NCBI RefSeq assembly: GCF_000688255.1
Contig: NZ_JHYS01000003.1
Span: forward strand, 1 to 64,000
Length of the DNA stretch: 64,000 nt
Reading direction: 5' to 3'
DNA from: Simplicispira psychrophila DSM 11588
GTDB taxonomy: Bacteria; Pseudomonadota; Gammaproteobacteria; Burkholderiales; Burkholderiaceae_C
The notes beneath the pieces are model-generated. The model was given only the letters and a program-made list of their open reading frames with translations. It ran no database searches and was not told the origin of the DNA. The position numbers were made by a program, and so were the translations under genes. Of the stretch, positions 27,161 to 45,676 are shown piece after piece; position 1 is the stretch's first letter, and each line of letters begins with the position of its first letter.

Positions 27161-27568
27161 ATGAAAATAATAGCTGCCAGCGCTGTATCCACGGGGCTTG
27201 ACACCGAAAACACCCTGCAAATTACCAACGACGCCGAGCTGGCCGAACTGGCCGCCAACGGCGCGCTCGACGGCGTGCAGCGCGTGGAACTGCAGTTTCC
27301 CAAATTCACCGATGGCCGCGCCTACAGCCAGGCGCTGCTGCTGCGCCGGCGCTACCGCTTCAGCGGCGACATCCGCGCCACGGGCGATGTGCTGATCGAC
27401 CAGTTGGTGCACATGCACCGCAGCGGCTTTACCAGCGCTGTACTGGCCGAGGGTGTGGATGCGGCCGCCGCCGAGCGCCAGTTTGAGCGCTTTGCCGGCT
27501 TCTATCAGGGCGATGTGCTGGAGCCGCGCCCGCTGTTTGCCCGCGATGCGGCACTGGAATCGGCATGA
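27161..27568 (+). CDS. DUF934 family protein of the sulfate-assimilation operon
   Basis: 135 residues of the oxidoreductase-like DUF934 family, regularly found between sulfite reductase and cysH in Proteobacteria. Its exact role is unknown. Core signatures: RVELQFPKFTDGRAYSQALLLRRRYRFSGDIRATGDVLIDQ and the Phe-rich end FERFAGFYQGDV. The first residues (KIIAASAVSTGLD) are encoded by the dispersed palindromic repeat, so the start region of this gene was rebuilt on a repeat copy. The stop overlaps the cysH start (ATGA). Confidence 0.88.
   Translation: MKIIAASAVSTGLDTENTLQITNDAELAELAANGALDGVQRVELQFPKFTDGRAYSQALLLRRRYRFSGDIRATGDVLIDQLVHMHRSGFTSAVLAEGVDAAAAERQFERFAGFYQGDVLEPRPLFARDAALESA
27164..27201 (+). 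repeat. Dispersed palindromic repeat forming the DUF934 N-terminus
   Basis: AAAATAATAGCTGCCAGCGC directly after the ATG, then TGTATCCACGGGGCTTGACA; the second half is eroded. Translated as KIIAASAVSTGLD. Confidence 0.7.
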
Positions 27569-28197
27569 GCACCGCACACACGCTCGACCTCGCGCACGTC
27601 AACGCCACGCTCGGGCGCGACGCGCCCGGCCTCGTCGCCTGGGCGCTCGGCCTGGGCGAGCGCTCCATCGTCACCACCAACTTCCGCCCCTTCGAGGCGG
27701 TGATCCTGCACTTGGTCACGCAGGTGCAACCCGACGTGCCGGTGGTCTGGATGGACAACGGCTACAACACCGCAGCCACCTACCGCTTTGCCGACGAGGT
27801 GACGCAGCAGCTCGGGCTGAACCTGCAAATTTACCTGCCGCGCCGCTCACGTGCACACCGCGAAGCCGTGCACGGGCTCACCCCCGCGCTGGATGACCCG
27901 CGCCACGCAGCTTTCACCGCAGAAGTGAAGCTCGAACCCTTCACCCGCGCGCTGCGCGAGACGGCGCCTAAGGTGTGGTTCACCGCACTGCGCGCCACCG
28001 ACACCGCCGTGCGCGCGCAGATGGACCCCGTGGGCATCAACCCCGACGGCCTCATCAAGGTGGCACCGCTGCTGCACTGGTCGTCCAAAGACCTGCACGA
28101 ATACTGCGTGCGGCACGGCCTGCCGAACAACTTCGACTACATCGACCCCACCAAGGGCGAAGACAACCGCGAGTGCGGCCTGCACTTGGCGCACTGA
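27565..28197 (+). CDS. cysH: Phosphoadenosine (or adenosine) phosphosulfate reductase
   Basis: Reduces activated sulfate to sulfite in assimilation. 210 residues, on the short side for the family. The PP-loop-like fold begins SIVTTNFRPFEAVILHLV, followed by VVWMDNGYNTAATYRFAD, and the catalytic Cys is in ECGLHLAH at the C-terminus. The extra CC and CxxC cluster cysteines of APS-type enzymes are absent, favouring the PAPS type. However, no cysC (APS kinase) is found in the window and cysN ends without a kinase domain. Substrate choice is open. Overlaps the DUF934 gene by four bases. Confidence 0.88.
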   Translation: MSTAHTLDLAHVNATLGRDAPGLVAWALGLGERSIVTTNFRPFEAVILHLVTQVQPDVPVVWMDNGYNTAATYRFADEVTQQLGLNLQIYLPRRSRAHREAVHGLTPALDDPRHAAFTAEVKLEPFTRALRETAPKVWFTALRATDTAVRAQMDPVGINPDGLIKVAPLLHWSSKDLHEYCVRHGLPNNFDYIDPTKGEDNRECGLHLAH

Positions 28198-28221
28198 ACC
28201 CGCCGACCCATTTGCAAACAT

Positions 28222-28273
28222 CAAAAACAATAGCTGCTAACGCTTTACCCATATGCGCTGCAGCCCCATTTGA
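28222..28273 (+). repeat. Dispersed palindromic repeat between cysH and cysD
   Basis: CAAAAACAATAGCTGCTAAC, then CATATGCGCTGCAGCC. It ends 12 bases before the cysD ATG, inside the operon. Confidence 0.75.
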
Positions 28274-28285
28274 TAGGAAAAACGC

Positions 28286-29218
28286 ATGAACGCCCGCACC
28301 GATCCCTCCGCGCTGAGCGCCCTCAGCAACCGCCACCTCGATGCGCTGGAAGAAGAAACCATCTTCATCCTGCGCGAAGTGGCCGCCGCTTTTGAGCGCC
28401 CGACGCTGCTGTTCTCGGGCGGCAAAGACTCGCTGGTGATGCTGAAATGTGCTGAAAAAGCCTTTGGCGCTGGGCGCATTCCGTACCCGCTGTTGATGAT
28501 TGACACCGGCCACAACTTCACCGAAGTCACCGATTTCCGCGACTTTCGCGCCAACGAGCTGGGCGCGGAACTGATTGTGCGCAGCGTCGAAGACTCGATG
28601 GCGCGCGGCACGGTGCGCTTGGCCCATCCCGGCGAATCGCGCAACGTGCACCAGTCAGTGACGCTGCTGGAAGCGATTGAAGAATTCCGTTTTGACGCGC
28701 TGATTGGCGGCGCGCGGCGTGACGAAGAAAAGGCCCGCGCCAAAGAGCGCATTTTTTCGCACCGCGACAGCTTCGGCCAATGGCAACCCAAAGACCAGCG
28801 CCCCGAGCTGTGGACGCTGTTCAATCACCGCCTGCAACCGGGCGAGCATTTCCGCGTCTTTCCGATCAGCAACTGGACGGAATTGGACGTGTGGCAGTAC
28901 ATCGAGCGCGAGCAGATTGCGCTGCCGTCGCTGTACTACACGCACAAGCGCGACATCGTCGAGCGCAAGGGTTTGCTGGTGCCGGTGACGCCGCTGACGC
29001 CGCCGCGCGCCGGCGAAACGGTTGAACAGCGCGACGTGCGCTTTCGCACCGTCGGTGATGTGACCTGCACCTGCCCGGTGGCCAGCCTGGCCGCCACTGC
29101 CGCCGACATCGTGCTGGAAACCCTGAGCGTGGACGTGAGCGAACGCGGCGCCACCCGCATGGACGACAAAACCTCTGACGCCTCAATGGAAAAGCGCAAG
29201 AAAGACGGGTACTTCTGA
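28286..29218 (+). CDS. cysD: Sulfate adenylyltransferase small subunit
   Basis: Makes adenosine phosphosulfate from ATP and sulfate, driven by the CysN GTPase. 310 residues. The PP-loop is LLFSGGKDSLVMLKC; other signatures are DTGHNFTEVTDFRD, GGARRDEEKARAKER, NWTELDVWQYIE and MEKRKKDGYF at the end. Stop and cysN start overlap by one base (TGATG). Confidence 0.96.
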   Translation: MNARTDPSALSALSNRHLDALEEETIFILREVAAAFERPTLLFSGGKDSLVMLKCAEKAFGAGRIPYPLLMIDTGHNFTEVTDFRDFRANELGAELIVRSVEDSMARGTVRLAHPGESRNVHQSVTLLEAIEEFRFDALIGGARRDEEKARAKERIFSHRDSFGQWQPKDQRPELWTLFNHRLQPGEHFRVFPISNWTELDVWQYIEREQIALPSLYYTHKRDIVERKGLLVPVTPLTPPRAGETVEQRDVRFRTVGDVTCTCPVASLAATAADIVLETLSVDVSERGATRMDDKTSDASMEKRKKDGYF

Positions 29219-30594
29219 TGACAACGACTACTGAATTGATAGCTGCCAGCGTAGATGCAGCAAGCGCTACAGGCAAAAATGACCATTTTTCTGCGCTGCG
29301 CTTCATCACCTGCGGCAGTGTGGACGATGGCAAAAGCACGCTGATTGGCCGCTTGCTGGTCGATAGCAAGGCGGTGCTGCAAGACCACCTGGCAGGCGTG
29401 CAGCGCGCCGGCGAGACCGATCTGGCGCTGCTCACTGACGGCCTGAGCGCCGAGCGCGAGCAGGGCATCACCATCGACGTGGCCTACCGCTACTTCGCCA
29501 CCGAGTCGCGCAAATTCATCATTGGCGACGCACCCGGCCACGCGCAGTACACGCGCAACATGGTGACGGCGGCGTCGCAGGCCGATGCCGCCGTGGTGCT
29601 GGTAGACGCCACCAAGCTCGACTGGAAAAACCCGCAATTGGCGCTGCTGGAGCAAACCCGCCGCCACAGCCTGCTGGTGCATTTGCTGCGTGTGCCGTCG
29701 CTGGTGTTTGCCGTCAACAAGTTGGACGCGGTGGAGAACCCTGAGTTGGCGTGGCAACACATCAGCGCCGCGCTGGCGCAGTTTGCCCAAGACGCCGGCA
29801 TTGCCGTGCGCGCCACGGTGCCGGTGTCGGCGCTGAAGGGGTGGAACGTCGTTACGCCGCGCCCCGATTGGTGCGGTTATGCCGGCCCCAGCCTGCTGCA
29901 ATGGCTGGAGCAGCTACCGACCATCGCCAGCGAGCGTGATCTGCCGTTGGCGTTTCCGGTGCAGTGGGTCGAAAAATTTGCGTCCTCTGCCGATACCTCG
30001 CAAGGCCGGCGCGTGTTCTGGGGCCGTGTCGCTACCGGCACGGTGGCCGTGGGCGCTGCGGTGCAGATTTTCCCCAGCGGCCAAACGGCCAGCGTGGCGC
30101 AAGTGTTAGACCATGCGCGCCGCCCCGGCACGGTCGCCGCCGGTCAAAGCGCCGGCTTGGTACTGGATAAAGAGGTCGATGTCTCGCGTGGTGACTGGAT
30201 CGTGGCGACGGCATCGGCCAGCGCTGCGGTCGTGGCTGATGATGACTTTGACACCCCTGTCGCCAGCACCAGCGCCTGGCCGGCGCAGCGCGAAATCTCC
30301 GCCACGGTGGCGTGGATGGACGACGAGCCGCTGGTGGTGGGCCGCGTGTATTGGGTGCTGCATGGTCATCGCTGGGTTAAGACCAAGGTGCAGCGGGTGC
30401 TGCACCGGCTCAACGTCCACACCTTGGCTGAAGAGGATGCCGACACGCTGGCGGCCAATGCCATCGGCCAAGTGCAACTGCTGCTGCAAGAGGCGTTGCC
30501 GACGGCGCCATTTGCCCAGTCGCGCGTGCTGGGGTCGCTGATCCTGGTGGACACCGCCAGCCACCGCACCGCTGCGGCAGTGCTGGTGCAATAG
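29218..30594 (+). CDS. cysN: Sulfate adenylyltransferase large subunit (GTPase)
   Basis: The EF-Tu-like GTPase that drives CysD. 458 residues. P-loop GSVDDGKSTLIGRLL (about residues 36-50), switch region AEREQGITIDVAYRYF, DAPGHAQYTRNM, and NKLD for guanine. Two beta-barrel domains follow and no APS-kinase domain is fused. Residues about 7-24 (LIAASVDAASATGKND) come from the dispersed repeat, which extends the N-terminus ahead of the conserved SALRFITCGSVDDGK. Confidence 0.95.
   Translation: MTTTTELIAASVDAASATGKNDHFSALRFITCGSVDDGKSTLIGRLLVDSKAVLQDHLAGVQRAGETDLALLTDGLSAEREQGITIDVAYRYFATESRKFIIGDAPGHAQYTRNMVTAASQADAAVVLVDATKLDWKNPQLALLEQTRRHSLLVHLLRVPSLVFAVNKLDAVENPELAWQHISAALAQFAQDAGIAVRATVPVSALKGWNVVTPRPDWCGYAGPSLLQWLEQLPTIASERDLPLAFPVQWVEKFASSADTSQGRRVFWGRVATGTVAVGAAVQIFPSGQTASVAQVLDHARRPGTVAAGQSAGLVLDKEVDVSRGDWIVATASASAAVVADDDFDTPVASTSAWPAQREISATVAWMDDEPLVVGRVYWVLHGHRWVKTKVQRVLHRLNVHTLAEEDADTLAANAIGQVQLLLQEALPTAPFAQSRVLGSLILVDTASHRTAAAVLVQ
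29236..29290 (+). repeat. Dispersed palindromic repeat inside the cysN N-terminus
   Basis: TTGATAGCTGCCAGCGTAGA followed by CAAGCGCTACAGGC and a T-rich end. Aligned without gaps to the intergenic copies and translated as LIAASVDAASATGK. Confidence 0.8.
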
Positions 30595-30679
30595 TGGGGT
30601 GCTTTGGGGGAATGCGCGCCAAGCCCTTGGTGCAAACCCTTAAAATTTCATCTTTCCCACGTCTCTTCAGAAAAACGCC

Positions 30680-31009
30680 ATGACACACGTAGTCTCCGAA
30701 AACTGCATCAAATGCAAATACACCGATTGTGTGGACGTGTGTCCCGTCGATTGCTTTGTCGAAGGCCCGAACATGCTCGTCATCAATCCCGATGAGTGCA
30801 TCGACTGCGCCGTGTGCGTGCCCGAGTGCCCGGCCAACGCCATTTTTGCTGAAGAAGACCTGCCGCCCACCGAGCTGGCCTTCATCAAGATCAACGCCGA
30901 TCTGACCAACGCCAAGGGATGGAAAGTCATCACCAAACGCAAGACTGCCTTGGCCGATGCCGATGAATGGAACGGCCAACCCGGCAAGGTCAAAGACCTG
31001 CAACGTTGA
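30680..31009 (+). CDS. fdxA: Seven-iron ferredoxin FdxA
   Basis: A 109-residue electron carrier with one [3Fe-4S] and one [4Fe-4S] cluster. Cysteines are arranged [17 protein letters not shown] and [12 protein letters not shown], and the C-terminal extension ([12 protein letters not shown] ... [10 protein letters not shown]) is typical of the proteobacterial type. The downstream gene encodes a ferredoxin-NADP reductase, so the two may form an electron-transfer pair. Confidence 0.95.
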
Positions 31010-31019
31010 GTCTGGGCTG

Positions 31020-32087
31020 ATGACCGCGGCCCCCGCCTCGCCTTCAGCAGTTGCTGATGTCGTCGTCATTGGCGCGGGCCCGGTCGGCCTGTTCCAGGTC
31101 TTTCAATTGGGCCTGCAGGGGCTGCGCGTCCACCTTATCGATGCACTGGCGCATCCTGGAGGGCAGTGCGCCGAGCTGTACGGCGATAAACCTCTCTACG
31201 ATATTCCCGGCCTGGCGGTATGCACCGGATACGAGCTGGTGCAGCGCCTGCTGCAGCAGATCGCGCCGTTTGCGCCGCACTGGCACCTGGGCCAGCAAGT
31301 GGCGCAACTGACAGCGCAGCCCGATGGCAGTTTTCTGGTCGTGACCAGCGCGGGGACGCCACTGCGCGCACGCGCGGTGTGTATCGCCGCCGGTGTTGGC
31401 GCGTTTGTGCCGCGTGCGCTCAAAGTGCCTGGCTTGGAGGCCTTTGCCGGCACACAACTGCTCTACCACTGGGATGGGCAAGATGCGCCGGCGCGCCTCG
31501 CCGGTCAGCAGGTCGTGGTGCATGGCGGCGACGCCCCGGCTGTGGCGCAAGTGCTGGCCTGCGCCAGCGCTGCGCAACCGCCAGCGAGCTTGACGCTGCA
31601 GCACCGGCGCGACGTTTTTGACGCTCCGCCCGAGCAACTGGCGCAGTTGCACGACTTGCGCAGCGCCGGACGCGTACAGATTGCCGTCGGCCAAATCAGC
31701 GCCGTGGAGCAGGTGGGCGAGCGCCTGACGGCCCTGCAACTGCTGGTTTCCGATGGCAGCACACAACGCTTGCCGCTGGATCTGCTGCTGGTGCGCCTGG
31801 GTCTGTCGCCGCGGCTGGGCGCGCTGACCGATTGGGGTCTGGCGCTGGAGCGCAAACAACTGGTGGTGGACACGGCCACCTTCGCTACCAGCGTGCCGGG
31901 TGTCCACGCCGTGGGCGACATTGCCACCTATCCCGGCAAGCGCCGCCTCATCGTCTGCGGCTTTCACGAAGCCACCTTGGCCGCTTTTGCCATCGCCGAG
32001 CGCTTGGCCGGACATCCCCTGCCGCTCGAATACACCACCAGCAGTAGCCGTTTGCAGCAGCGTCTGGGCGTGTCGGCAGCGTCCTGA
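31020..32087 (+). CDS. Ferredoxin-NADP reductase, thioredoxin-reductase-like type
   Basis: A FAD/NAD(P) flavoprotein of about 355 residues transferring electrons between NADPH and ferredoxin. FAD-binding VVVIGAGPVGLFQVFQLGLQG and PGGQCAELYGDKPLYDIPG are hallmarks of the TrxR-like FNR class, which lacks the redox-active CxxC. The second nucleotide site is VVVHGGDAPA. GVHAVGDIATYPGKRRLIVCGFHEATLAAF closes the FAD domain. The ATG at 31020 (MTAAPASPS) lies 10 bases after fdxA; the earlier in-frame Met at 30957 is inside fdxA. Confidence 0.92.
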   Translation: MTAAPASPSAVADVVVIGAGPVGLFQVFQLGLQGLRVHLIDALAHPGGQCAELYGDKPLYDIPGLAVCTGYELVQRLLQQIAPFAPHWHLGQQVAQLTAQPDGSFLVVTSAGTPLRARAVCIAAGVGAFVPRALKVPGLEAFAGTQLLYHWDGQDAPARLAGQQVVVHGGDAPAVAQVLACASAAQPPASLTLQHRRDVFDAPPEQLAQLHDLRSAGRVQIAVGQISAVEQVGERLTALQLLVSDGSTQRLPLDLLLVRLGLSPRLGALTDWGLALERKQLVVDTATFATSVPGVHAVGDIATYPGKRRLIVCGFHEATLAAFAIAERLAGHPLPLEYTTSSSRLQQRLGVSAAS

Positions 32088-32111
32088 GCACCTGTCTGCC
32101 GTAGTGCTCCT

Positions 32112-32160
32112 GAAATAAGAGCTGCTATCGCTGGTGCAATAAGCCTTTCAGGGTTTTTTG
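32112..32160 (+). repeat. Dispersed palindromic repeat after the FNR gene
   Basis: GAAATAAGAGCTGCTATCGC, then GTGCAATAAGCCTTTCAGGG and a T-run. The T-run after a potential stem could also help termination. Confidence 0.55.
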
Positions 32161-32293
32161 TCTCTTGGGGCGGAATCGTCCTGAAAGCTCGCTTCTTGCT
32201 TGGCGCGCCTGATGGCTGTCTTTTTTGTTCAGCCAAGACCCTATTCATCACACTAGAATCCCTCTGTTTTACATTTTGAAATAACCCTCCCGC

Positions 32294-35146
32294 ATGCGCT
32301 TGTCTGCCAACGAAACCACGATGCCGCGGCTCCACCTGATTGGCACGCTGGTATTGATACTGGTAGTGACACTGGCCATGACGGGATTTTTTTCATGGCA
32401 GAACGAGCAGGAGCAAGGCCACGCCTTCAAACGCGTCGCGCAGTTGCTGACACAGCAGCAAAAAGAACGCCTGACAGCGGAAATGCGCTCCGCCCTGGAC
32501 TATGTTGATTTTGTCCACCAGCGCACCGAAGATGTCCTGCGCAGCCGGGTGATCGAGCAAGTCGATGTGGCGCTCGACATGGCGCAGGCGATCCATGCGC
32601 GTGAATCGGGACGTCGGCCAGCGGCCGAGGTGAAACAACTCATCATGGAAGCCTTGCGTCCGGTGCAGTTTTTCGACGGCCGGGGCTACCTCTTCATTGA
32701 TGATATGCAAGGCCAGTTCGTGCTGCTGCCGACGGCGCCGCAATACGAAGGGCGCAGTGGCATTGACAACCAGGACGACCAAGGCACCTACATCATGCGC
32801 GGGCTGATCGCGGCCGCACACCAACCGCCGGGCGAATCATTTTTTCGCTACCGCTGGTATCGGCCAGACAACCCGCTGCAAATGGCCGAAAAATTGGCTT
32901 ATGTACGCCACTTTGCTCCCTACGACTGGCTGATTGGCAGCGGCGATTACGTCTATGAATGGGAGACTCGGCAAAAGAATGAAGCCATGCAGCGCCTGCG
33001 GGCACTGCGCTTTGGCGACAGCGGTACGGTCGGCCTGATAGCGCCCGATGGGCGCTCACTGCTCAGCCCCAACGATATTGCCATTGAAGGGCTGCTGCCC
33101 GAAAAAATGCCCCCGCTGCAACGGGCCGCCCTGGACAAAATCCGTACCACCGCCCTGGCTGGAGGCGGTTTTGTCGAATATGAATGGCCCCGGGTAGGCC
33201 ACCAAGACGGCCAGCAAGACCAGTTGCTGGGCCGCAAGACGGCGCTGGTCAGCGTCTACGGGCCGTGGAATTGGGTGCTGGTGACCGCGATGTTCAACGA
33301 CGAGTTGCAATCAACGCTGCGCACTGAAACCCAGGCATACAGCCAGGGCAGTACGCAGCGGCGGCTGCAATTGGCGCTGCTGCTGTGCGGAGCGCTGGCG
33401 CTGGGCGTGATCGGCTCGTTTGGCTTTTCACGCTGGTCGCGCCATTTGTTCATGCGCTACCACCGCGAACTGGCTGCTGCAAACGCCAACCTGCGCGTGG
33501 CAGCCATTGCCTTTGAGTCGCAAGAGGGCATGTGCGTCACCGACCCCCAGGGTGTCATCCTGCGCGTCAACCAGTCGTTTACCCGCATCACCGGTTACAG
33601 CGCTGAAGAGGCCGTTGGCCAGACGCCTGCGCTGCTGAAATCGGGCCGGCACGATGCGCCTTTCTACGATTGCATGCACAGTGTGCTTGCCAGCACCGGT
33701 GTTTGGCAGGGCGAAATCTGGAACCGCCGCAAGGACGGCTCGGTATTTCCCGAATGGCTCACCATCACTGCCGTCAAAACCGAAGTCGGCGTTATCTCGC
33801 ACTTTGTCAGCACCCTGATCGACATCACCCAGCGCAAGGAAGACGAAGAAAAAATTCGCTATCTGGCGTATTACGACCTCCTGACCCTGCTGCCCAACCG
33901 CCGTCTGCTGATGGATCGCCTGCAGCGTGCGTTGGCCACCAGCCGGCGCACACAGTACCTGGGTGCGCTGATGTTCATTGACCTGGACAATTTCAAGTTG
34001 GTCAACGACAGCCTGGGCCACGACAAGGGCGATCTGCTGCTGCATGAGATGGCACAGCGCCTGTCCGCCGCCGTACGTGAAATCGACACCGTGGCCCGGC
34101 TGGGCGGCGACGAGTTCGTGGTGGTGCTGGAAAACCTGAATACGCAAGTGCGCAAAGCCGCCCGCCAAGCCGAAGATATTGCTGAAAAAATACGCTCGGC
34201 CCTGGCCCAGCCGATGCTGCTGGCAGAGCAGTCGATACAAAGCTCTTGCAGCATTGGCGTGGTGCTGTTCACCGACGCCCACGCCAGCGCTGACGACCTG
34301 ATGAAACACGCTGACCTGGCCATGTACCAGGCCAAGGAAGCCGGGCGCAACACCGTGCGCTTTTTTGACCCGCAAATGCATGCTGCCGTGCTCCATCGCG
34401 TAGCCCTGGAACAAGACCTGCGCACCGCGCTGCAGGACGGCCATCTGGTGCTTTTCTACCAGGTCCAAGTAGATGCGCTGGGTCACTGCGTGGGTGTCGA
34501 AGCGCTGGTGCGTTGGCGCCACCCGCAGCGCGGCCTGGTCTCGCCTGGGGAATTCATTCCTCTGGCCGAAGAGTGCGGACTGATTCTGCCGCTGGGCCAG
34601 TGGGTGCTGCACAGCGCCTGCGAGCAACTGGCACGCTGGGCCCACGAGCCCGCGCATACGCACCTGACGGTGGCCGTCAACGTCAGCGGCCGGCAGATGA
34701 TTCAGAGCGACTTTGTGGCCCAAGTGCTGCAAACGCTGGCACGCACCGGCGCCCCGGCGCAGCGCCTGAAGCTGGAGTTGACCGAGAGTCTGCTGCTGGA
34801 CAACCCGCAAGACGCCATCACCAAGATGAGCGAATTGAAAGCGAACGGCGTCGGTTTTTCGCTGGATGATTTCGGTACCGGTTATTCGTCGCTGGCCTAC
34901 CTGCGCCAGTTGCCGCTGGACCAGATCAAGATTGACCAAAGTTTTGTGCACAACCTGGTGTCTGATCCGCGCGCCATGGCCATCGTGCGCACGATCGTCA
35001 CCCTGGCCGATAACCTGGACCTGAGCGTGATTGCCGAAGGCGTGGAAACCGAGGCACAGCGCCAAAGCTTGGCAACCCATGGCTGCCATGCCTATCAAGG
35101 CTATCTATTTGGCCGGCCGGTGCCGATAGAAGAACTGATTTTGTAA
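32294..35146 (+). CDS. Cache-PAS-GGDEF-EAL cyclic-di-GMP signalling protein
   Basis: A 950-residue membrane sensor. One N-terminal helix (about 13-32), a periplasmic Cache region with two similar halves (RGYLFIDDMQGQFVLLPT; LVSVYGPWNWVLVTAMF), a second helix (about 355-380), a PAS domain (ITGYSAEEAVGQ), a GGDEF domain and an EAL domain. Both active motifs are intact: RLGGDEFVVVL (about 602) and VEALVRW (about 736) with DDFGTGYSSLAYL. It could therefore both make and degrade c-di-GMP, although in such fusions one activity usually dominates. A later Met at 32321 is an alternative start. No operon partner. Confidence 0.93.
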   Translation: MRLSANETTMPRLHLIGTLVLILVVTLAMTGFFSWQNEQEQGHAFKRVAQLLTQQQKERLTAEMRSALDYVDFVHQRTEDVLRSRVIEQVDVALDMAQAIHARESGRRPAAEVKQLIMEALRPVQFFDGRGYLFIDDMQGQFVLLPTAPQYEGRSGIDNQDDQGTYIMRGLIAAAHQPPGESFFRYRWYRPDNPLQMAEKLAYVRHFAPYDWLIGSGDYVYEWETRQKNEAMQRLRALRFGDSGTVGLIAPDGRSLLSPNDIAIEGLLPEKMPPLQRAALDKIRTTALAGGGFVEYEWPRVGHQDGQQDQLLGRKTALVSVYGPWNWVLVTAMFNDELQSTLRTETQAYSQGSTQRRLQLALLLCGALALGVIGSFGFSRWSRHLFMRYHRELAAANANLRVAAIAFESQEGMCVTDPQGVILRVNQSFTRITGYSAEEAVGQTPALLKSGRHDAPFYDCMHSVLASTGVWQGEIWNRRKDGSVFPEWLTITAVKTEVGVISHFVSTLIDITQRKEDEEKIRYLAYYDLLTLLPNRRLLMDRLQRALATSRRTQYLGALMFIDLDNFKLVNDSLGHDKGDLLLHEMAQRLSAAVREIDTVARLGGDEFVVVLENLNTQVRKAARQAEDIAEKIRSALAQPMLLAEQSIQSSCSIGVVLFTDAHASADDLMKHADLAMYQAKEAGRNTVRFFDPQMHAAVLHRVALEQDLRTALQDGHLVLFYQVQVDALGHCVGVEALVRWRHPQRGLVSPGEFIPLAEECGLILPLGQWVLHSACEQLARWAHEPAHTHLTVAVNVSGRQMIQSDFVAQVLQTLARTGAPAQRLKLELTESLLLDNPQDAITKMSELKANGVGFSLDDFGTGYSSLAYLRQLPLDQIKIDQSFVHNLVSDPRAMAIVRTIVTLADNLDLSVIAEGVETEAQRQSLATHGCHAYQGYLFGRPVPIEELIL

Positions 35147-35240
35147 AACATGGGCCTGCACCTGAGCGATTTCCGCGTGGAGATGGGCGTTGCCAGGGGA
35201 TGGCAAGGGCGGACAGGATGGAAGACCGCGGCAACAATCC

Positions 35241-35290
35241 TTTTTTGATAGCTGGAAGCGCTTTATGCATAAGGGTTGCAGGTGTTTTTG
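35241..35290 (+). repeat. Dispersed palindromic repeat upstream of the NCS1 permease
   Basis: TTTTGATAGCTGGAAGCGCT, then TATGCATAAGGGTTGCAGGT and a T-rich end. A good, full-length copy. Confidence 0.8.
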
Positions 35291-35360
35291 ACTCGAAAAT
35301 TCAAGTGGCAAGTGAGCGCCCCCCTGCCTTCTACAATCACGTCCTGTCCGAAGGCATTGC

Positions 35361-36683: not shown

Positions 36684-36808
36684 AAAATACCGCAGCCGAC
36701 GGGCGACAAGACGGCAAATCTATTCGATGAATTGATGTATTCACGGTCATGGCAGGGCGCAAGAATGCTATGGTGACTTTCATTTCAAAATAAGAAGGAC
36801 TTCAGGTC

Positions 36809-38410
36809 ATGGAGCTTGCAGGAATGAGTTTGGTGGAGACAGATGGCCACATTTTTTTACAAGTCCAGCCGCAGGAAAAACGCCCGCCAGTGGATGCAGT
36901 CATGCTGCATACCTTGCTCACCGAGCAGGGTTATGGCGACTGCGCCTTGGACGAAGCAGCTATTACGGCAGCAGTCACCGATTGCAATACCCTGACGGAG
37001 CTTTTTTCAGTCCCTGTGGCGCAGCGGTGCAATGCTGCCATTGAGATTAATGTGTCCCGCGACGAGATGGTCGCCCATCTCACTTTGGTGGCCGCGCAGG
37101 GGGGCAAAGCCGCCACGCTGGGCGACATCCTTCAGGCGCTGAGCGATGCCGGGGTGGTTTTTGGTGTCAACGATCAAGCCCTGTTGCACGCCAGCGAATC
37201 CGGTGTGGGCCACCAAATTGTGATTGCCGAGGCCAAAAAACCTGAAAATGGACAAAACAGCCTGTTTGAAGCGCTGATTGAAAATCCGCCCAACCGAGCT
37301 CCGCTGGTCGATGAGAACGGTTTCATCGATTACCGCGAGCGTGGCGCCATCCAGACCGTCCAGCCCGACACCCCCTTGATGCGCCGCATTCCGGCGACGC
37401 CAGGAATGGACGGATGCACTGTTCGAGGGCGCATTCTGTCGCCCCGTCCAGGGCGAGACGTGCTTTTTGCCAAAAATCTGGCGGGTACCCAAATCGATCC
37501 CAACGACCCCGGCGTGCTGCTGGCAGCGGTGGCCGGGCAGGCAGTGCAGGTAGCCGATGGAATGATCGTCGAGCCGGTCCTGAAAGTGGCCGAGGTCAAC
37601 ATGGCTTCGGGCAATATCCACTTTGATGGCAGCGTGCATATCAAGGGCGATGTGCTCCAGGGCCTGTTGGTCAAAGCCACTGGCGACATCGTGATCCGCG
37701 GCATGGTCGATGGTGGCCGGCTGGAGGCGGGCGGCAATATCACCATTGCCGGGGGCGTTATTGCCCATGCCAGCGTGCATGCCGCCGGCTCGGTCAGTGC
37801 CCGTTTTGCGCAAGGGGTGAAAATTTCTGCCGGCACCGTCATTGAACTGCACGACATGGCACTTGATTGCCAGCTGGATGCACTCAACCAGATTCTCATC
37901 GGCACGCAAAAACCAGGGCGCGGGCGCCTGGTAGGCGGCACCGCCACCGCCATGATGCTGCTGCGGGTACCCATCCTGGGTTCTACCACCAGCCCCATCA
38001 CCAAAGTCGTGCTGGGCGCCAATCCGGAACTGGACGCGAAATACGTTGCCCTGCAAGAATGTCTGCTCAAGCAAAAGCAGGCGGAAGAAAGCCTGGATCA
38101 GCTGGAAAAACAGGTCGCCGCCGCCGGCGATCCGACAGGCATGTTGCCGCGCATCAAACAGTCCAGACAACGTGCGCTGCAGGAGTGGGGGAAATTGCTG
38201 GCCGAGCGCAAAGAACTGGAAGCACAAATCGCCGCCGAAGAAACCGCCCGGCTGGAAATTAGTACTTCCGTGGACGGTGCCGTCGATATGTTGATTGACA
38301 AACAGCTGGTGCGCTTGCGCACCGAATATGGCGCTGGTGTATTTTCCAAAAACCCTGTCGGCCACATTGTGTTCACCGATGCCAAAGAGGCGAGCGTGCG
38401 CGTCGGCTAA
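36809..38410 (+). CDS. FapA family protein (DUF342)
   Basis: 533 residues with the DUF342/FapA layout: an N-terminal region with FIDYRERGAIQTVQPDTPLMRRIPATPG and DGCTVRGRIL, a polymer-forming beta-helix (GSVHIKGDVLQGLLVKATGDIVIRGMVDGG ... GGNITIAGGVIAHASV), and a C-terminal coiled coil (KQKQAEESLDQLEKQVAA ... AERKELEAQIAAEE). Family members are linked to cell-surface or flagellar functions and some respond to signals; the role here is unknown. Located between the permease and the suf operon with no partner. Confidence 0.85.
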   Translation: MELAGMSLVETDGHIFLQVQPQEKRPPVDAVMLHTLLTEQGYGDCALDEAAITAAVTDCNTLTELFSVPVAQRCNAAIEINVSRDEMVAHLTLVAAQGGKAATLGDILQALSDAGVVFGVNDQALLHASESGVGHQIVIAEAKKPENGQNSLFEALIENPPNRAPLVDENGFIDYRERGAIQTVQPDTPLMRRIPATPGMDGCTVRGRILSPRPGRDVLFAKNLAGTQIDPNDPGVLLAAVAGQAVQVADGMIVEPVLKVAEVNMASGNIHFDGSVHIKGDVLQGLLVKATGDIVIRGMVDGGRLEAGGNITIAGGVIAHASVHAAGSVSARFAQGVKISAGTVIELHDMALDCQLDALNQILIGTQKPGRGRLVGGTATAMMLLRVPILGSTTSPITKVVLGANPELDAKYVALQECLLKQKQAEESLDQLEKQVAAAGDPTGMLPRIKQSRQRALQEWGKLLAERKELEAQIAAEETARLEISTSVDGAVDMLIDKQLVRLRTEYGAGVFSKNPVGHIVFTDAKEASVRVG

Positions 38411-38488
38411 GAAGGACAGATTTTCCGTCAATCCACCCCTCCTCCAGAACACGCCCACCAGACAGATCAATTTTTGGTGGTGGCGCGG

Positions 38489-39037
38489 CTATAAGCCGAG
38501 TGTCAGCTGTGCGGCTTCGGACATGCGCGAGCGATCCCAAGGTGGATCAAACACCAGATTGACGGTGATTTCGCCCACCAGCGGCAGGGCCAGCACTTTG
38601 TCGCAGACCTCTTCGGCAATCGATTCGCCCATGCCGCAGCCCGGTGCCGTCAGCGACATGTCGATCAGTACATGCATCTTTCCATCGTCCATGGCTTCCA
38701 GCTCGCAGCCGTAGATCAGCCCGAGTTCAACGATGTTCACCGGGATTTCCGGGTCATAGCAGGTGGCCAGGGTTTGCCAGAGGAGGTCTTTCAGGTCTTT
38801 CAACTCGATCTTGTCCGGCAGCACCACGCTGGCCGGGGGCGTTTTGCCGATGGCGGCGGCGTCGGCCCCTTTGAGACGCACCAGTTGCCCATGGACCACC
38901 AGCGTGAACGAGGAACCCAGCGCCTGCGTGAGCTGCGCCAGGGTGCCGGCGCGCAGTTCCATCAGTGAGCCGTCGGGAATGCATTCGACCTGTACCGTGT
39001 GCTGCACCAGCACGTCTTCGCGGTGGCGTTTCATCAT
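38489..39037 (-). CDS. sufT: Fe-S cluster assembly protein SufT (DUF59)
   Basis: A maturation factor used when Fe-S demand is high. 182 residues from ATG 39037 (MMKRHREDV), with the MIP18/DUF59 core in the C-terminal half: LATCYDPEIPVNIVELGLIYG and IDMSLTAPGCGMGESIAEEV (conserved Cys), ending VNLVFDPPWDRSRMSE. The start overlaps the sufU stop by four bases. Last gene of the suf operon. Confidence 0.92.
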   Translation of the reverse strand: MMKRHREDVLVQHTVQVECIPDGSLMELRAGTLAQLTQALGSSFTLVVHGQLVRLKGADAAAIGKTPPASVVLPDKIELKDLKDLLWQTLATCYDPEIPVNIVELGLIYGCELEAMDDGKMHVLIDMSLTAPGCGMGESIAEEVCDKVLALPLVGEITVNLVFDPPWDRSRMSEAAQLTLGL

Positions 39038-39495
39038 GGCGTGTTCCCCGTTGGCGCGTCGGCCGGCGCTGTATCGGCCAGGGCGTGGCTGAGGGCATGC
39101 CAGCCCAGCAGCGCGCACTTGATGCGGCTGGGGTAGCGGCGCACGCCGGTCAGGCTGATGAGTTTGCCCAGATAAGCGTCGTCCGGCTCGGTCTGGCCGG
39201 TCAGCACGGCGCGAAAGTGCTGTTGCAAATTTTCCGCGTCGGCGACGGCATGGCCTTTGACGGCCTCGCTCATCATCGATGCCGAGGCGATGCAGATGGC
39301 GCAGCCCTGGCCGCTGAAGCGGATGTCGTGCACCTGGCCGTGCTGCACGTCCAGCTCGACACGCAGATCGTCGCCGCACTGCGGGTTGGTGCCGCGCGCC
39401 TGGTGCGTTGGGGCGGTTAGGTGGCCAAAGTTGCGCGGCGCGCGTTTGTGTTCCACCACTACTTCTTGGTAAAGATCGTTTTCTGCGCTGCTCAT
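39034..39495 (-). CDS. sufU: Fe-S scaffold/sulfur-transfer protein SufU
   Basis: 153 residues of the NifU-N/SufU fold, receiving sulfur from SufS. Three conserved Cys regions: NPQCGDDL, SGQGCAICIASAS and RIKCALLGWHAL. The spacing between the first and second regions fits the SufU subgroup, which accepts sulfur with a bound zinc. Its stop overlaps the sufT start and its own start overlaps the sufS stop (four bases each). Confidence 0.92.
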   Translation of the reverse strand: MSSAENDLYQEVVVEHKRAPRNFGHLTAPTHQARGTNPQCGDDLRVELDVQHGQVHDIRFSGQGCAICIASASMMSEAVKGHAVADAENLQQHFRAVLTGQTEPDDAYLGKLISLTGVRRYPSRIKCALLGWHALSHALADTAPADAPTGNTP

Positions 39496-40787
39496 TGCAA
39501 TACCTCCAGGGCGCGTGCCACGCCGGCCAGCAGGCGCTCGACCTCGGCGTGGCTGTTGTAGAGCGCAAAGGACGCGCGTGTCGTCGGCCCCAGGCCCAGG
39601 TGATCCAGCAGCGGCTGCGCACAGTGGTGGCCGGTGCGCACGGCAATGCCTTGCTCGTCAAGCAGGGTGCCGATGTCGTGCGGGTGCGCGTTATGCGCGA
39701 CAAACGACACGATGGCCGAGTCGTTGGCCTGCGGCGACAGCACCGTGATGCCATCGATGGCGGCCAGGCCGCTGGCGGCATGGGCGCGCAGCGCGCTGAC
39801 GTGGGCGTCGATGGCGCTGCGCCCGGTGTGCTCGATAAACGCCGCCGCCGCCGCCATGCCGATGGCGCCGGCGACATTCGGTGTGCCGCCTTCGAGGCGG
39901 CTGGGCAGGGCGGCAAATTGGGCGTCGGCATACGTCACCCACTCGACCATGTCGCCGCCGTAGCGCAGCGGTGCCAGGCGCTCCAGCGCGGCGCGCCGGC
40001 CGACCAAGGCGCCGGTGCCCATGGGGCCGTACATCTTGTGACCCGAGAAGGCCATGAAGTCGCAGTCCAGCGCCGACAGCGCGGGCACGGCGTGCGCCAT
40101 GGCCTGCGCCGCGTCGAGCACGGTCAGCGCGCCGGCCTGTGCGGCCAGCGCCAGCAGGGCGGCATAGGGCGGCGTCTCGCCGATGGCGTTGGAACAGGCG
40201 GTGACGGCCAACAGCCGCGTGCGCGGCGTCAGCAGAGCCTGCAGGTCTTGCGGGTGCAAACGACCTTGGGCATCGGGCAGCAGCACGCGCAGCGTGGCGC
40301 CGCTGCGCCGCGCCGCCTGTTGCCAAGGCACCAAGTTGGCGTGGTGCTCCAGACCGCTGACGATGATCTCGTCGCCCGGCTGCAGCACGGCGCCGCCAAG
40401 CTGCGGGGCCGACAGCCCGTGCGCCACCAAGTTCAGTGACTCGGTGGTGCCCGAGGTGAACACCAGTTCGTGCCCAGCGTTCGCACCGACAAAGCGTTTC
40501 AGATCGCTGCGCGCCTGCTCGAAGGCGTCGGTGGCACGCTGGCTCAGGCGGTGCACGCCGCGGTGGATGTTGGCGCGGTCATGCTCTTCAAAGCGGCGCA
40601 TGGCCTCCAGCACTGGTAGCGGCAGTTGCGTGGTAGCGGCGTTGTCCAGATAGGCCAGAGGATGGCCGTGGATGCGCTGCACCAATATCGGAAACAGCGC
40701 GCGCACGGAGGCTGGCAGATCGGTGCTGGTGCCCGTATCGGTGCCCGAGCCAGCGTCCAGCGTGGGTGCCAAAGGGGTGTCAAACAT
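39492..40787 (-). CDS. sufS: Cysteine desulfurase SufS
   Basis: A PLP enzyme that takes sulfur from cysteine. 431 residues from ATG 40787 (MFDTPLAP), chosen because AGGAGG precedes it; an ATG at 40805 is less likely. The PLP Lys is in FSGHKMYGPMGTG, the PLP-ring His in SGLEHHANLVPW, and the sulfur-carrying Cys in RTGHHCAQPL. The start overlaps the end of sufD by eight bases, so translation is coupled. Confidence 0.95.
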   Translation of the reverse strand: MFDTPLAPTLDAGSGTDTGTSTDLPASVRALFPILVQRIHGHPLAYLDNAATTQLPLPVLEAMRRFEEHDRANIHRGVHRLSQRATDAFEQARSDLKRFVGANAGHELVFTSGTTESLNLVAHGLSAPQLGGAVLQPGDEIIVSGLEHHANLVPWQQAARRSGATLRVLLPDAQGRLHPQDLQALLTPRTRLLAVTACSNAIGETPPYAALLALAAQAGALTVLDAAQAMAHAVPALSALDCDFMAFSGHKMYGPMGTGALVGRRAALERLAPLRYGGDMVEWVTYADAQFAALPSRLEGGTPNVAGAIGMAAAAAFIEHTGRSAIDAHVSALRAHAASGLAAIDGITVLSPQANDSAIVSFVAHNAHPHDIGTLLDEQGIAVRTGHHCAQPLLDHLGLGPTTRASFALYNSHAEVERLLAGVARALEVLQ

Positions 40788-42042
40788 GGTGTACCTCCTG
40801 TGCATTCGCCAAGTGCTGCGCCATGGCGTGCGCCAGCTGGCCGTCCGCCATCAGCGTGGCGACCAGTTCGGGGTCGTCAAAGCCGCGCTCCAGCAGGGCA
40901 GTGGCCATGCCCTGCACGATCAGGCTGCGTGCGCTGTCCTCGTCCAGGCCACGCTGGCGGGCATAGAACAGCGCGTCTGCGGGCAGGGCGCCCCAGGTAG
41001 CGCCGTGCGCGGCTTGCACGTTGTCGTGGTGGATCTCTAGGTGCGGGCGCAGCACCAAGCGCGGCTGGCCGGTCAGCGGGATGCCGTGCAGGCGCTGGTG
41101 CACGTCGGCTGCATCGGCGCCTGCAGCGATGTGGCTGTGCGCGTTGGCCACGGCGTGCGCCTTGCCGCTGGCCAGCACCAGCATTTCGACGTGGCTGCGG
41201 CTGTGGGCGGCGTGGTGTGTGGTGTGGACTTGCTGCTCCAGCGCCGCATCGGCTGCCAGCAGCAGACCGGCGGTGCGCGCGCTGGCGTGCGCGCCTTGCA
41301 GGTCGATGGCGCTGCGCTGCAGGTGGTAGGCACTGCCCGAGGCAATCAGCGCCTGGGCGTAGTGCGCGCGCCGGCCCAGTTGCGCATGTACCTGGTGGGC
41401 TACTTGGTCGTGCGGCCCAGGTGCCACTTGGCGCAGATGTTGCAGCACGGCGCCTTGGCCCAGGCGCAGGTGGATTTGCAGGTTTTGCGTGACGCCGTGC
41501 GTGCAGGACAGGCTGCTGCGCTCATGCGTCTCCAGCAGCACGCAGCGCACGCCGTCGGCCAGCTCCAGCACTAAGAGCGGCGCTTCGACGCTGGCCGTGG
41601 GCTGGTGGCGCAGTTGCAGCCAGACGGTGGGCGCTTGGCTGGCGCCGGCTGTGCCAGCAGTGATGTGCAGGCGCAGGCCTTGCTGGCACAGCGCGCGGTG
41701 CGCCCAGCCAAAGGGTGCGGCGTCGCCCGCGCCGGGCAGTGGCAGGCCGGCGAACAGCTCGGCGCGCTGCTGCGGATCGCTGGCGTCGAGCCAGCGTGCG
41801 GTGATGTGGCTCGGGTCGGTGTGGCTGACCGGGTGCAGCGTCCAGCCCGCGCCTTGCAGCGGCGAGGCGTCACACGGCGGTGCAGTCGGTGCAGTCAGCG
41901 CGTCGGTGCTGCCCATCCAGCTGGCCAGTGGTGGCGGCCGTAGATGGCGGAAGGATTCGTTGCGTGCCGCTATCCAGCCATGCTGGTGCAGGTGGTCGCG
42001 GGCGGCCAGGATGTCGGCGCGTGCGGTGTCCATGGTGTTCAA
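40780..42042 (-). CDS. sufD: Fe-S cluster assembly protein SufD
   Basis: A scaffold partner of SufB and SufC. 420 residues with the right-handed beta-helix body and the C-terminal FeS-assembly block HHDNVQAAHGATWGALPADALFYARQRGLDEDSARSLIVQGMA. The His in HHDN corresponds to the residue at the SufB-SufD interface. Overlaps sufC by four bases. Confidence 0.94.
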   Translation of the reverse strand: MNTMDTARADILAARDHLHQHGWIAARNESFRHLRPPPLASWMGSTDALTAPTAPPCDASPLQGAGWTLHPVSHTDPSHITARWLDASDPQQRAELFAGLPLPGAGDAAPFGWAHRALCQQGLRLHITAGTAGASQAPTVWLQLRHQPTASVEAPLLVLELADGVRCVLLETHERSSLSCTHGVTQNLQIHLRLGQGAVLQHLRQVAPGPHDQVAHQVHAQLGRRAHYAQALIASGSAYHLQRSAIDLQGAHASARTAGLLLAADAALEQQVHTTHHAAHSRSHVEMLVLASGKAHAVANAHSHIAAGADAADVHQRLHGIPLTGQPRLVLRPHLEIHHDNVQAAHGATWGALPADALFYARQRGLDEDSARSLIVQGMATALLERGFDDPELVATLMADGQLAHAMAQHLANAQEVHHV

Positions 42043-42809
42043 GCCTCCACCGGTTCGGTGCTGCGGGCAAAGCCGGTGCGGGCGATGTGCCGCGCCAGTG
42101 TGATATCACCGGTCTCGGCAATACAGCCTTGGTCTAGCCGCAGCACGGCATCGGGTTGCAGCAACTCAATCAGTTGCAGGTAGTGCGAGACGATGACAAA
42201 GGCCGTGCCCTGGGCGCGCAACTGCTGCACCAGCGCCACGACAGCGTGCACGCCATCGACGTCCATGCCCGAGTCGATCTCGTCCAGCAGCGCCAAGCGC
42301 GGTTGCAGTAGCGCCAGTTGCAGCAATTCGTTGCGCTTGCGCTCGCCGCCGGAAAAGCCTTCATTCACCGGGCGGCTCAACATGGCTTCGGGCAGGCCCA
42401 GCTGGCGCGCTGCTGTGCGCGCCTGGCCAAGAAAGTCGAAGGCATCCAGCGGTTCCTGGTCGCGTGCCTGGCGCACGGCATTCAGGGCCGTGCGGATGAA
42501 CAAGTTGTTTTTCACGCCGGCAATGTCGGGTGGCGACTGGAAGGACAAAAACAGGCCGGCGCGGGCACGCTCCTGCACGTTCATGGCCAGCAGGTCTTGC
42601 CCGGCAAAAGTTGCCTGGCCGCTGGTGACGTGGTAGCTGGGGTGGCCGGCCAGCGTCAGGGCGAGCGTGCTTTTGCCACTGCCGTTGGCGCCCATCAGCA
42701 CCACCAGGGCGCCGGGCGCCACGTCGAGCGACACCGACTTGAGTACGTGGTGGTCGCCCACTTGAACGCGCAGGTCGCGCACTTGCAGCAAGGCAGTGGA
42801 AGTGGTCAT
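42039..42809 (-). CDS. sufC: Fe-S cluster assembly ATPase SufC
   Basis: The ABC-type ATPase of the SufBCD complex. 256 residues. Walker A GANGSGKSTL, signature GFSGGERKRNE, Walker B LALLDEIDSGMDVD and a switch His in VIVSHYLQ. A repeat copy separates it from sufB; otherwise the operon is tightly packed. Confidence 0.95.
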   Translation of the reverse strand: MTTSTALLQVRDLRVQVGDHHVLKSVSLDVAPGALVVLMGANGSGKSTLALTLAGHPSYHVTSGQATFAGQDLLAMNVQERARAGLFLSFQSPPDIAGVKNNLFIRTALNAVRQARDQEPLDAFDFLGQARTAARQLGLPEAMLSRPVNEGFSGGERKRNELLQLALLQPRLALLDEIDSGMDVDGVHAVVALVQQLRAQGTAFVIVSHYLQLIELLQPDAVLRLDQGCIAETGDITLARHIARTGFARSTEPVEA

Positions 42810-42824
42810 GGAGAGTCCTTTTTA

Positions 42825-42874
42825 ATTTTGATAGCTAATAGCGCTGGTGGAATAAGGGCTAGAGGCACTTTTTG
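42825..42874 (+). repeat. Dispersed palindromic repeat between sufB and sufC
   Basis: TTTTGATAGCTAATAGCGCT, then GGAATAAGGGCTAGAGGCAC and TTTTTG. It is one of the cleanest copies, lying inside the suf operon in the orientation opposite to transcription. Confidence 0.85.
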
Positions 42875-42890
42875 TATAAAAACGAGTGAC

Positions 42891-44345
<1,455 letters not shown>

Positions 44346-44401
44346 GGCGCGTCTCCGGGGGAGGAGTAAAGATCATCGGGGGCCTCCTGCGTGGGTCTTA
44401 A

Positions 44402-44424
44402 TAGATTCATACGATATGCATCTT
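44402..44424 (-). promoter_or_regulatory. Candidate Rrf2-type operator upstream of sufB
   Basis: On the minus strand AAGATGCATAT-C-GTATGAATCTA is an imperfect palindrome close to the NsrR/Rrf2 half-site form and similar to the box upstream of nnrS (18076-18098). A weak promoter TTGCAG (44434-44439), 17 bases, TATCGT overlaps it. Control by an IscR/NsrR-like regulator is inferred. Confidence 0.45.
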
Positions 44425-44485
44425 TAAAGACGGCTGCAAAGTGGGACGCTGGTGTCCGCGCTGTCGGCAAGGGTATGGCGGTGAT

Positions 44486-45676
44486 TCAGGGTTGGCGAAA
44501 CGGGCTGCGCGACTGCAGTTCGTCCAAGTACTGCGCTACCCCTTCGCCTTCACGTTCCAGAAAGCGGTCCACCGCATCGGCAAACGCCGGGTGCGCCAGC
44601 CAGTGCGCGCTGTGGGCCTGCACCGGCAGCAGGGCGCGTGCCATTTTGTGCTCGCCCTGTGCGCCGCCCTCAAAGCGCTGCACGCCGTGCGCGATGCACC
44701 ATTCCAGTGGCTGGTAATAGCAGGCTTCAAAGTGCAGGCAGTCCACGCGCTCCAGCGCGCCCCAGTAGCGGCCATAGGCTGTCAGGGGATAGAAATTTTG
44801 GTCTTTTTGGCCTCTAGCCCTTATGGGGTCTGCGCTGACAGCTATCAAGCTACTAGCGATGGGGCGGCCTTGGCGCTCGGCGATGAACAGCACCCAGTGC
44901 TCCGGCATGTCGCTTTCCATCTGCGCAAAGAAATTACGCGTCAGGTAGGGCGGGTTGCCGTGTTCCAGATAGGTGCGTTCGTAGCAGCGGTAGAAAAAAT
45001 CCCAGTCAGAGGGCGCGATGTCGTGGCCGCGCGCCCAGCGGAAGGTCACGCCGGCTTCGGCGACACGGCGGCGTTCCTGGCGGATTTTCTTGCGCTTCTC
45101 CTGGTTCAGGCTGCCCAAAAAACCATCAAAGTCAGCGTACGGCGCATTGTTCCAATGGAATTGCACTGTGTGGCGCAGCATCAGCCCGGCGCTGGCGCAG
45201 GCGGCCATGTCCTCGTCGCTGGCAAACAGCACATGCAACGACGACACACTGGCCTCCTCGCACCACGCACGCAGCGCCTGCACCAAAGCCGCGCGCGCTG
45301 GCGCATCCCGTGCCATCAGGCGCGTGCCGGGCACGGGAGTGAAGGGCACCGCGACTACCGCCTTGGGGTAATAGTGCAGGCCGTGCTCGGCATAGGCGCG
45401 CGCCCAAGCCCAGTCAAACACGTACTCGCCATACGAATGCTCTTTCAGGTACAGCGGACAGGCGGCGATCAGCGTGTCACCCTGCCATAGCGTGAAAAAG
45501 CGCGCTGTCCAGCCGGTGGCAGGGGTGGCGCTGCCACTGTCCTGCAATGCCGCCAAATAGGCGTGGCGCATGAATGGCGTCGGCTGCGACTGGCACGCCA
45601 GCAGGGCGTTCCAAGCCTGCGCGTCCACGCCCTGCAGAGAATCGAACACGCGGGTGATAATCGCTGCCTCAGCCAC
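44486..45676 (-). CDS. GNAT family N-acetyltransferase (peptidogalycan/DUF482 type)
   Basis: 396 residues from GTG 45676, chosen for the AGGAGG just upstream. The FemAB-like acyltransferase pattern is visible: PFMRHAYLAALQDSGSA, YVFDWAWARAYAEHGLHYYPK, NQEKRKKIRQERRRVAEAG, CYERTYLEHGNPPYL, YGRYWGALERVDCLHFEACYYQ and FEGGAQGEHKMARALLP. The substrate is unknown. Residues about 276-292 (LIAVSADPIRARGQK) are encoded by a dispersed repeat between ERQGRPIASS and YGRYWG, a position where related proteins have a short loop. Divergent from nadE. Confidence 0.85.
   Translation of the reverse strand: MAEAAIITRVFDSLQGVDAQAWNALLACQSQPTPFMRHAYLAALQDSGSATPATGWTARFFTLWQGDTLIAACPLYLKEHSYGEYVFDWAWARAYAEHGLHYYPKAVVAVPFTPVPGTRLMARDAPARAALVQALRAWCEEASVSSLHVLFASDEDMAACASAGLMLRHTVQFHWNNAPYADFDGFLGSLNQEKRKKIRQERRRVAEAGVTFRWARGHDIAPSDWDFFYRCYERTYLEHGNPPYLTRNFFAQMESDMPEHWVLFIAERQGRPIASSLIAVSADPIRARGQKDQNFYPLTAYGRYWGALERVDCLHFEACYYQPLEWCIAHGVQRFEGGAQGEHKMARALLPVQAHSAHWLAHPAFADAVDRFLEREGEGVAQYLDELQSRSPFRQP
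44801..44849 (-). repeat. Dispersed palindromic repeat inside the GNAT gene
   Basis: On the minus strand CTTGATAGCTGTCAGCGCAG, then CCCCATAAGGGCTAGAGGCC and AAAAAGAC. Full length and translated as LIAVSADPIRARGQK. Confidence 0.85.

Follow-up and report, generated by a model that had tools for sequence, protein, structure and literature searches.

The stretch analysed here, referred to as the window, comprises positions 1 to 64,000 of contig NZ_JHYS01000003.1 from the betaproteobacterium Simplicispira psychrophila DSM 11588. It carries 16 copies, located with a position weight matrix (PWM), of a repeat that is found both in genes and in the spacers between them. The element is a 47-nt imperfect palindrome of fixed length with AT-rich ends. 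Seven of the 16 copies lie in genes, five in sense and two in antisense orientation. The sense copies are located in pepN (3931-3977, minus strand, 39 bits, NIANTTDPISVTGAF), in earP (8562-8608, minus strand, 47 bits), at the N-terminus of a DUF934 gene (27165-27211, plus strand), at the N-terminus of cysN (29234-29280, plus strand, 49 bits, LIAASVDAASATGK) and in a GNAT gene (44804-44850, minus strand, 41 bits, LIAVSADPIRARGQK). The DUF934 copy is the weakest of the five, with 26 bits, or 19 bits when a matrix built from copies outside genes is used. A sequence-only reading of the window had described five related peptides at these sites, and all five are present as written; the span of 27164-44849 given for them holds the DUF934, cysN and GNAT copies, while those of EarP and PepN lie outside it. 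Its description of a repeat inside intact genes of a betaproteobacterium, with the segments tolerated by the host proteins, was borne out. The two antisense copies, in earP (8106-8152, plus strand, 48 bits) and in nadE (46500-46546, minus strand, 42 bits), were absent from it.

A PWM scan of 460 kb of the same genome identified 107 copies scoring between 18 and 66 bits, with the matrix trained on these same copies, and extrapolation to the whole genome gives about 840 copies. The reversed sequence of the genome, used as a control, reached a top score of 14.7 bits. An element-poor congener (G002), of which 1.62 Mb was scanned, presented no site of at least 18 bits and a top score of 15.7. The in-gene scores of the main matrix are slightly inflated because it was trained on the copies themselves; the outside-gene matrix, built from 75 copies, removes this inflation, and 28 of the 32 copies in coding sequences (CDS) still scored about 18 bits or more with it. 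The gene set of the 460-kb sample was produced by a home-made codon-usage caller and is not an annotation. In each of five synonymous codon shuffles, zero or one gene reached about 18 bits, whereas 26 of the 416 genes did so with their real codons. The observation itself is confirmed and is not due to chance: chance coding similarity is refuted for 28 of the 32 in-gene copies. An Rfam scan of the window at the gathering score gave five matches (four tRNAs and one ilvH RNA), none of them over any element. A literature search, which included 12- to 14-letter pieces of the element and whose coverage excluded most subscription journals, retrieved no paper on the 47-nt element.

The consensus of the family is AATTAATAGCTGCTAGCGCATGTCTCAAAAGGGCTAGAGGCCGATTT, which starts with AATTAATAGCT. 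The half-sites stood at a single spacing in 87 of 92 cases, and good 5' halves outside full copies numbered only five. Seven inverted pairs were observed in the 460 kb, each at an offset of exactly 43 nt, forming 90-nt doublets.

The five sense copies of the window are all translated in one frame, as the sequence-only reading had stated. In the 460 kb, 31 copies overlap a called CDS by 40 nt or more; of these, the sense copies were distributed as 15 in phase 1, three in phase 0 and one in phase 2, and the antisense copies as eight in phase 2, two in phase 0 and two in phase 1. The companion claim that the other forward frames are stopped by TAG does not extend to the three sense phase 0 copies, which have GAG at the consensus TAG. 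The shared frame is strongly preferred, not exclusive. The in-gene frame skew exceeds that predicted from the stop-freedom of the spacer copies (Monte Carlo P 0.0002), and sense phase 1 together with antisense phase 2 holds 75 of the 78 in-gene matches in a locus set that spans several genera, many of these matches being orthologous. In the spacers, the shared frame was open in 23 of 60 intergenic copies and three other frames in 19, 23 (antisense phase 2) and 26 (antisense phase 0). This low share means that translatability is not maintained in the element, and the earlier suggestion that it is selected as an in-frame, stop-free peptide is not supported. The frame is a filter set by stops and by what the proteins accept, not a property maintained by the element; openness is what survives in genes.

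Protein lengths were compared between the genome and G002 for 16 of the 31 in-CDS copies. A further 13 had no usable match in the fetched G002 stretches, and the cysN and DUF934 copies fell at the alignment edge and are therefore outside the 16. The length difference (own minus G002) was 0 aa for nine copies and +1, +2, -1, -3, +6, +9 and +15 aa for the others; dropping one copy that fails the outside-gene PWM leaves 8 of 15 copies at 0 aa. Within the window, NadE showed no difference, EarP differed by -1 aa at 8562-8608 and by +9 aa at 8106-8152, PepN by +6 aa, and GNAT is the case of about +15 aa, from a match that is 46% identical. An insertion that predates the split from G002 could be hidden in such a comparison, and distant solved homologues were therefore compared too. 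Dxr and LpxB aligned to theirs without gaps across the element (0 and 0 aa). The element regions of NadE, OTC and an rRNA methylase differed from those of the solved proteins by +1 to +3, +3 to +4 and 0 to +4 aa, and relative to distant homologues in the PDB the differences were about +4 aa for the EarP copy at 8562-8608, about +6 aa for that at 8106-8152 and +7 aa for PepN. The 0-aa majority against G002 and the gapless Dxr and LpxB alignments together indicate that the motif mostly overlays native coding sequence.

GNAT alone among the compared in-gene copies appears to fit an insertion, of 12-15 aa. All 11 of the outgroup or about-50%-identical rows are 12-15 aa shorter, and none of the 11 carries the motif. 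The GNAT orthologues of five other genomes (G004, G012, G015, G016 and G019) present a separate feature: at about residue 178 the protein match is interrupted by 45 to 333 additional nt, the two halves remaining in a single open frame, which marks a second variable insertion site.

Two further genes carry the motif in some orthologues and not in others. The PolA sequences of 22 congeneric genomes (the present one among them) are all of one length, and five of them carry the motif at about 18-28 bits, by way of codons such as ATA, GCT and GCA; three of the motif-bearing sequences have Ser where the others have Gly. The solved homologues of PolA do not span the element site. In cysI, the motif covers an FVPPAL-like stretch of the sulfite reductase in 19 of 72 loci. 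Ten of the 19 are from Rhodoferax, and in Rhodoferax loci such as L029, L046 and L063 the overlying element is antisense; the cysI of the window itself is without the element. The length of this segment is 50-55 with the element, which is inside the element-free range of 43-58. Homologues with the same residues at the repeat, which the sequence-only reading took as the mark of chance similarity, were found in part: the motif of GNAT, PepN and NadE is shared by congeners rich in the family, whereas at most of the sites compared the element-poor relatives have native residues that can be aligned but do not carry the DNA motif.

A survey of 200 genomes of the bacterial family found 26 genomes, from 19 genera, with at least 29 pattern hits and 118 with none. 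Of the 26 genomes compared within the genus, the present one among them, 23 had 53-390 pattern hits and the remaining three had 0, 1 and 3. These three element-poor congeners form one clade in the PepN tree, in which their branching position within the genus is not resolved, and the choice between loss and never having gained the element in this clade rests on the cysN copies in other genera. At a threshold of 18 bits or more, the motif was present in 18 of 19 congeneric GNAT rows, in all 17 PepN rows from high-copy congeners (own included) and none of three from low-copy ones, and in all 11 NadE loci (own included). ATA encodes the motif Ile in 16 of 16 PepN, 12 of 12 GNAT and 10 of 10 chosen cysN sequences. 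These were drawn from 17 PepN rows with the element, from 19 GNAT loci and, picked by hand, from 39 cysN loci with the element; outside elements, ATA makes up 2.8% of the Ile codons of the genome. The element window ranked first in synonymous identity in two of four genes, GNAT (1/347) and NadE (1/437).

The cysN and DUF934 copies are better read as belonging with the copies that follow stop codons. They lie 15 nt past the cysD stop and 19 nt past the cysI stop, respectively, the commonest distance in the family, and are translated only because the next start codon precedes them. They constitute the weakest support for an element that adds peptides. In the locus set spanning several genera, the motif reached at least 18 bits in 39 of 80 cysN and 33 of 74 DUF934 orthologues. 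Among loci of at least 8 kb, other copies were found nearby in 26 of 35 with the cysN element and in 3 of 35 without it. The median distance from the cysD stop to the cysN core was 74 nt with the element (n=37) and 68 nt without it (n=38).

The window holds nine spacer copies: 11567-11613 (minus strand, 35 bits), 20725-20771 (plus, 44 bits), 28225-28271 between cysH and cysD (plus, 48 bits), 32113-32159 (plus, 48 bits), 35243-35289 (plus, 48 bits), 42826-42872 between sufB and sufC (plus, 57 bits), 53355-53401 (minus, 61 bits), 55192-55238 (plus, 52 bits) and 61872-61918 (plus, 61 bits). Relative to G002, the spacers of the copies at 32113-32159, 53355-53401 and 55192-55238 are longer by 128, 42 and 32 nt. 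Over eight syntenic element-bearing spacers the median difference was +64.5 nt, one spacer being 5 nt shorter, and the median of 86 control spacers was 0. The sufB-sufC spacer measures 67-85 nt in five loci with the element and 30-33 nt in two without it; the cysH-cysD spacer, 88 nt here, measures 183 nt in one of 12 element-free loci and 8-43 nt in the other 11. The spacer copies look like added DNA. A short spacer cannot host the motif, however, so part of this length contrast is expected without any insertion.

We tentatively interpret the element, with slightly less than even confidence, as a family-wide DNA signal of fixed 47-nt length that lies chiefly a short way past stop codons, is REP-like in this placement, after the repetitive extragenic palindromic (REP) sequences, and behaves in genes in the manner of an uptake sequence. 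Some reader of the element sequence would then act genome-wide, either as an uptake preference working as a molecular drive or as a DNA-binding protein. Such a reader would favour bases that complete the motif, and matches could arise and persist over native codons wherever the protein allows; once the reader is lost, the motif would erode and the native peptide would stay. In favour of this reading are the small length differences in genes, the top synonymous-identity ranks of GNAT and NadE, the abundance or near-absence of the family from one genome to another, the other copies near element-bearing cysN, the even spread along the genome and the fixed spacing of the half-sites. A more specific form of this proposal, which we consider somewhat less likely than not, holds that a long palindromic signal of the Comamonadaceae spreads in conserved genes through base substitutions and not through insertion, and so imposes rare codons and minor residue changes on proteins such as PolA, Dxr, LpxB, NadE and CysI. 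It would then be either an uptake-signal-like system, the third and an independent one, or a binding site used throughout the genome that some lineages of the family have lost and others kept. If the in-gene copies are indeed written on native codons, a genome-wide DNA signal shapes conserved enzymes across a bacterial family, and a peptide shared by unrelated proteins need not mean that a mobile element was inserted. What is unusual here is that a long DNA motif is maintained over conserved coding sequence across a bacterial family.

The uptake signal sequences and DNA uptake sequences (USS/DUS) of Pasteurellaceae and Neisseriaceae provide the best-known parallel for the copies in genes. According to PMC2346458, they occur in hundreds to thousands of copies with a bias of orientation and position in genes, and PMC1939737 proposes that point mutations in pre-existing sequence, as opposed to insertions, give rise to them. 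An even spacing of these sequences, reported by others, is questioned by the author of PMC1939737. The element likewise is a genome-wide motif that, GNAT excepted, appears to arise in genes without insertion. It differs in that its spacer copies look like added DNA.

Several observations weigh against a signal built up by substitution. Known uptake sequences are far shorter, about 9-12 nt, and are described as not palindromic in PMC1939737. A gradual build-up should leave intermediates, and the excess of near-matches expected of an uptake sequence was not seen: 460 kb of the genome holds one partial match of 8-17 bits, compared with seven in 841 kb of G002, and a grading of matches was seen only in the orthologue series of PolA, NadE and cysI. 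The spacer copies include a subfamily with a common loop, which suggests that whole units were copied in spacers. Sharing among orthologues is not universal, as the five of 22 PolA sequences illustrate, and several copies in another tested gene are matched in only one or two of three orthologues. The synonymous-identity rank was 61/861 for PepN and 133/421 for cysN. No reader was identified in this analysis.

The paucity of partial matches and the shared-loop subfamily make a REP-like origin in spacers, combined with conversion or selection in genes, a strong rival to the DNA-signal interpretation, although on balance we consider it unlikely. In its full form, this rival posits a mobile, REP-like element that inserts after stop codons and may be spread by a Y1 transposase of the REP-associated tyrosine transposase (RAYT) type or of the terminal inverted repeat (TIR) type, the in-gene copies resulting from ectopic conversion or length-neutral replacement. 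The element shares features with REP sequences and REPINs: PMC3733652 describes these as high-copy palindromes that form inverted dimers and stand downstream of genes where the neighbouring open reading frames are codirectional or convergent, with some copies in genes. The high copy number and seven inverted doublets of the present family agree with this, as do the 47 of 107 copies that stand between -15 and +30 nt relative to a stop codon and the divergent spacers, which hold only 3 of 74 spacer copies; among the 84 copies preceded by a stop at a distance of up to 400 nt, 33 lie 5-20 nt past it. The added spacer DNA and the shared loop point the same way. The differences are that the 47-nt consensus is without the GTAG or CGTC end tag of the REP classes, and that a fixed length, little stem covariation and mostly length-neutral in-gene copies are observed here. 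REP sequences are not known to undergo length-neutral replacement inside genes. The copies are also spread along the genome more evenly than a Poisson process predicts (variance/mean 0.41, one-sided P 0.006, 23 bins, doublets counted once), and in the single spacer that was read by eye no target-site duplication was seen.

The association with Y1 genes, which would favour the REP-like mobile element, is ambiguous. The Y1 gene had an element at its 3' end in 8 of 12 high-copy loci, scoring only 17 bits in one of the eight, and in none of 14 low-copy loci; these counts omit five loci with short IS200-type genes (four high-copy, one low-copy), none of which has an element at the gene end. Y1_Tnp matches were nevertheless common in element-poor genomes (24 of 33) as well as in high-copy ones (24 of 27), and the 47 copies near stops serve 56 of 402 genes in any case. 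The Y1 gene often has end motifs of its own, GGGGWSAS-like and on at least one side of the gene in 8 of the 10 high-copy loci with a start motif found; TIR-flanked relatives with their own end motifs are described in PMC3733652. RAYT as the sole driver was rejected, since the presence of the Y1 gene barely separates rich from poor genomes. The main text of PMC3733652 contains no word starting with Comamonas, Acidovorax, Delftia, Polaromonas or Burkholderi. In the genome itself, the only approximately full-length RAYT-type Y1 gene among five Y1_Tnp matches was located at 1061-1925 of locus L109. It is flanked on either side by GGGGTCAG/GGGGTCAC-like motifs, with an element in the interval from the stop codon to the end motif.

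An RNA hairpin, acting as a terminator or a stabiliser of 3' untranslated regions and selected after genes, with the in-gene copies as by-products, is improbable. The placement after stops is in agreement with it, as is a mean folding z of -2.1 against letter shuffles (sense strand, 60 spacer copies). Covariation at stem and flank pairs, in contrast, was weak at best (z -1.6 to 2.2 over 107 copies), many copies have G-G at pair 18-32 and A-A at 20-30, and the spacing is fixed even where loops could vary. Furthermore, 31 of the 107 copies fall entirely within called genes, some of them in sense and some in antisense orientation. The hairpin as a conserved property was rejected on account of the weak covariation.

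The insertion model of the sequence-only reading, in which a selfish element akin to the Rickettsia palindromic elements (RPEs) is inserted in frame and adds a tolerated peptide, is left with little probability. PMC3767692 describes RPEs as repeats within unbroken open reading frames, with the insert at the same place in orthologues. Same-site sharing was likewise observed here for GNAT, PepN and NadE, with PolA at five of 22, and the lengthened GNAT also favours the model, as does the distance from the cysD stop to the cysN core, which is 36 nt longer in locus L055 (with the element) than in L079 (without it). Over all loci, though, the cysN medians differ by far less (74 and 68 nt), spacer copies do not preserve an open frame, and 15 of the 16 compared in-gene copies are without a 15-aa difference, nine of them at 0 aa and six between -3 and +9 aa, with Dxr and LpxB gapless besides. 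RPEs are also longer, at 100-150 bp as opposed to 47 nt, and occur in another class of Proteobacteria. An RPE-type insertion is not supported for most copies. Chance coding similarity is barely credible, as the four of 32 in-gene matches that score below 18 bits on the outside-gene PWM are set against the absence of matches in 1.62 Mb of G002 and the yield of 0-1 genes per codon shuffle as opposed to 26.

The BRE repeats were considered as the identity of the element. According to PMC3110155 they occur in Comamonadaceae and other betaproteobacteria, some of them in genes, and are about 90 bp long, with a mean of 69% GC in Bordetella and at most 29 copies per genome. This identity was set aside on described size and GC alone, the present element being 47 nt long and AT-flanked. 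The cysD-cysN spacers of other lineages (for example L046, L047, L087 and L100) contain a GC-rich, repeat-like stretch that may be the published BRE.

The spacer copy at 53355-53401 lies directly upstream of the ilvH RNA (Rfam RF02993), which was located at 53404-53471 of the window and starts 2 nt beyond the element. The spacer of this RNA carries an element in all nine loci compared, namely the window and eight congener loci.

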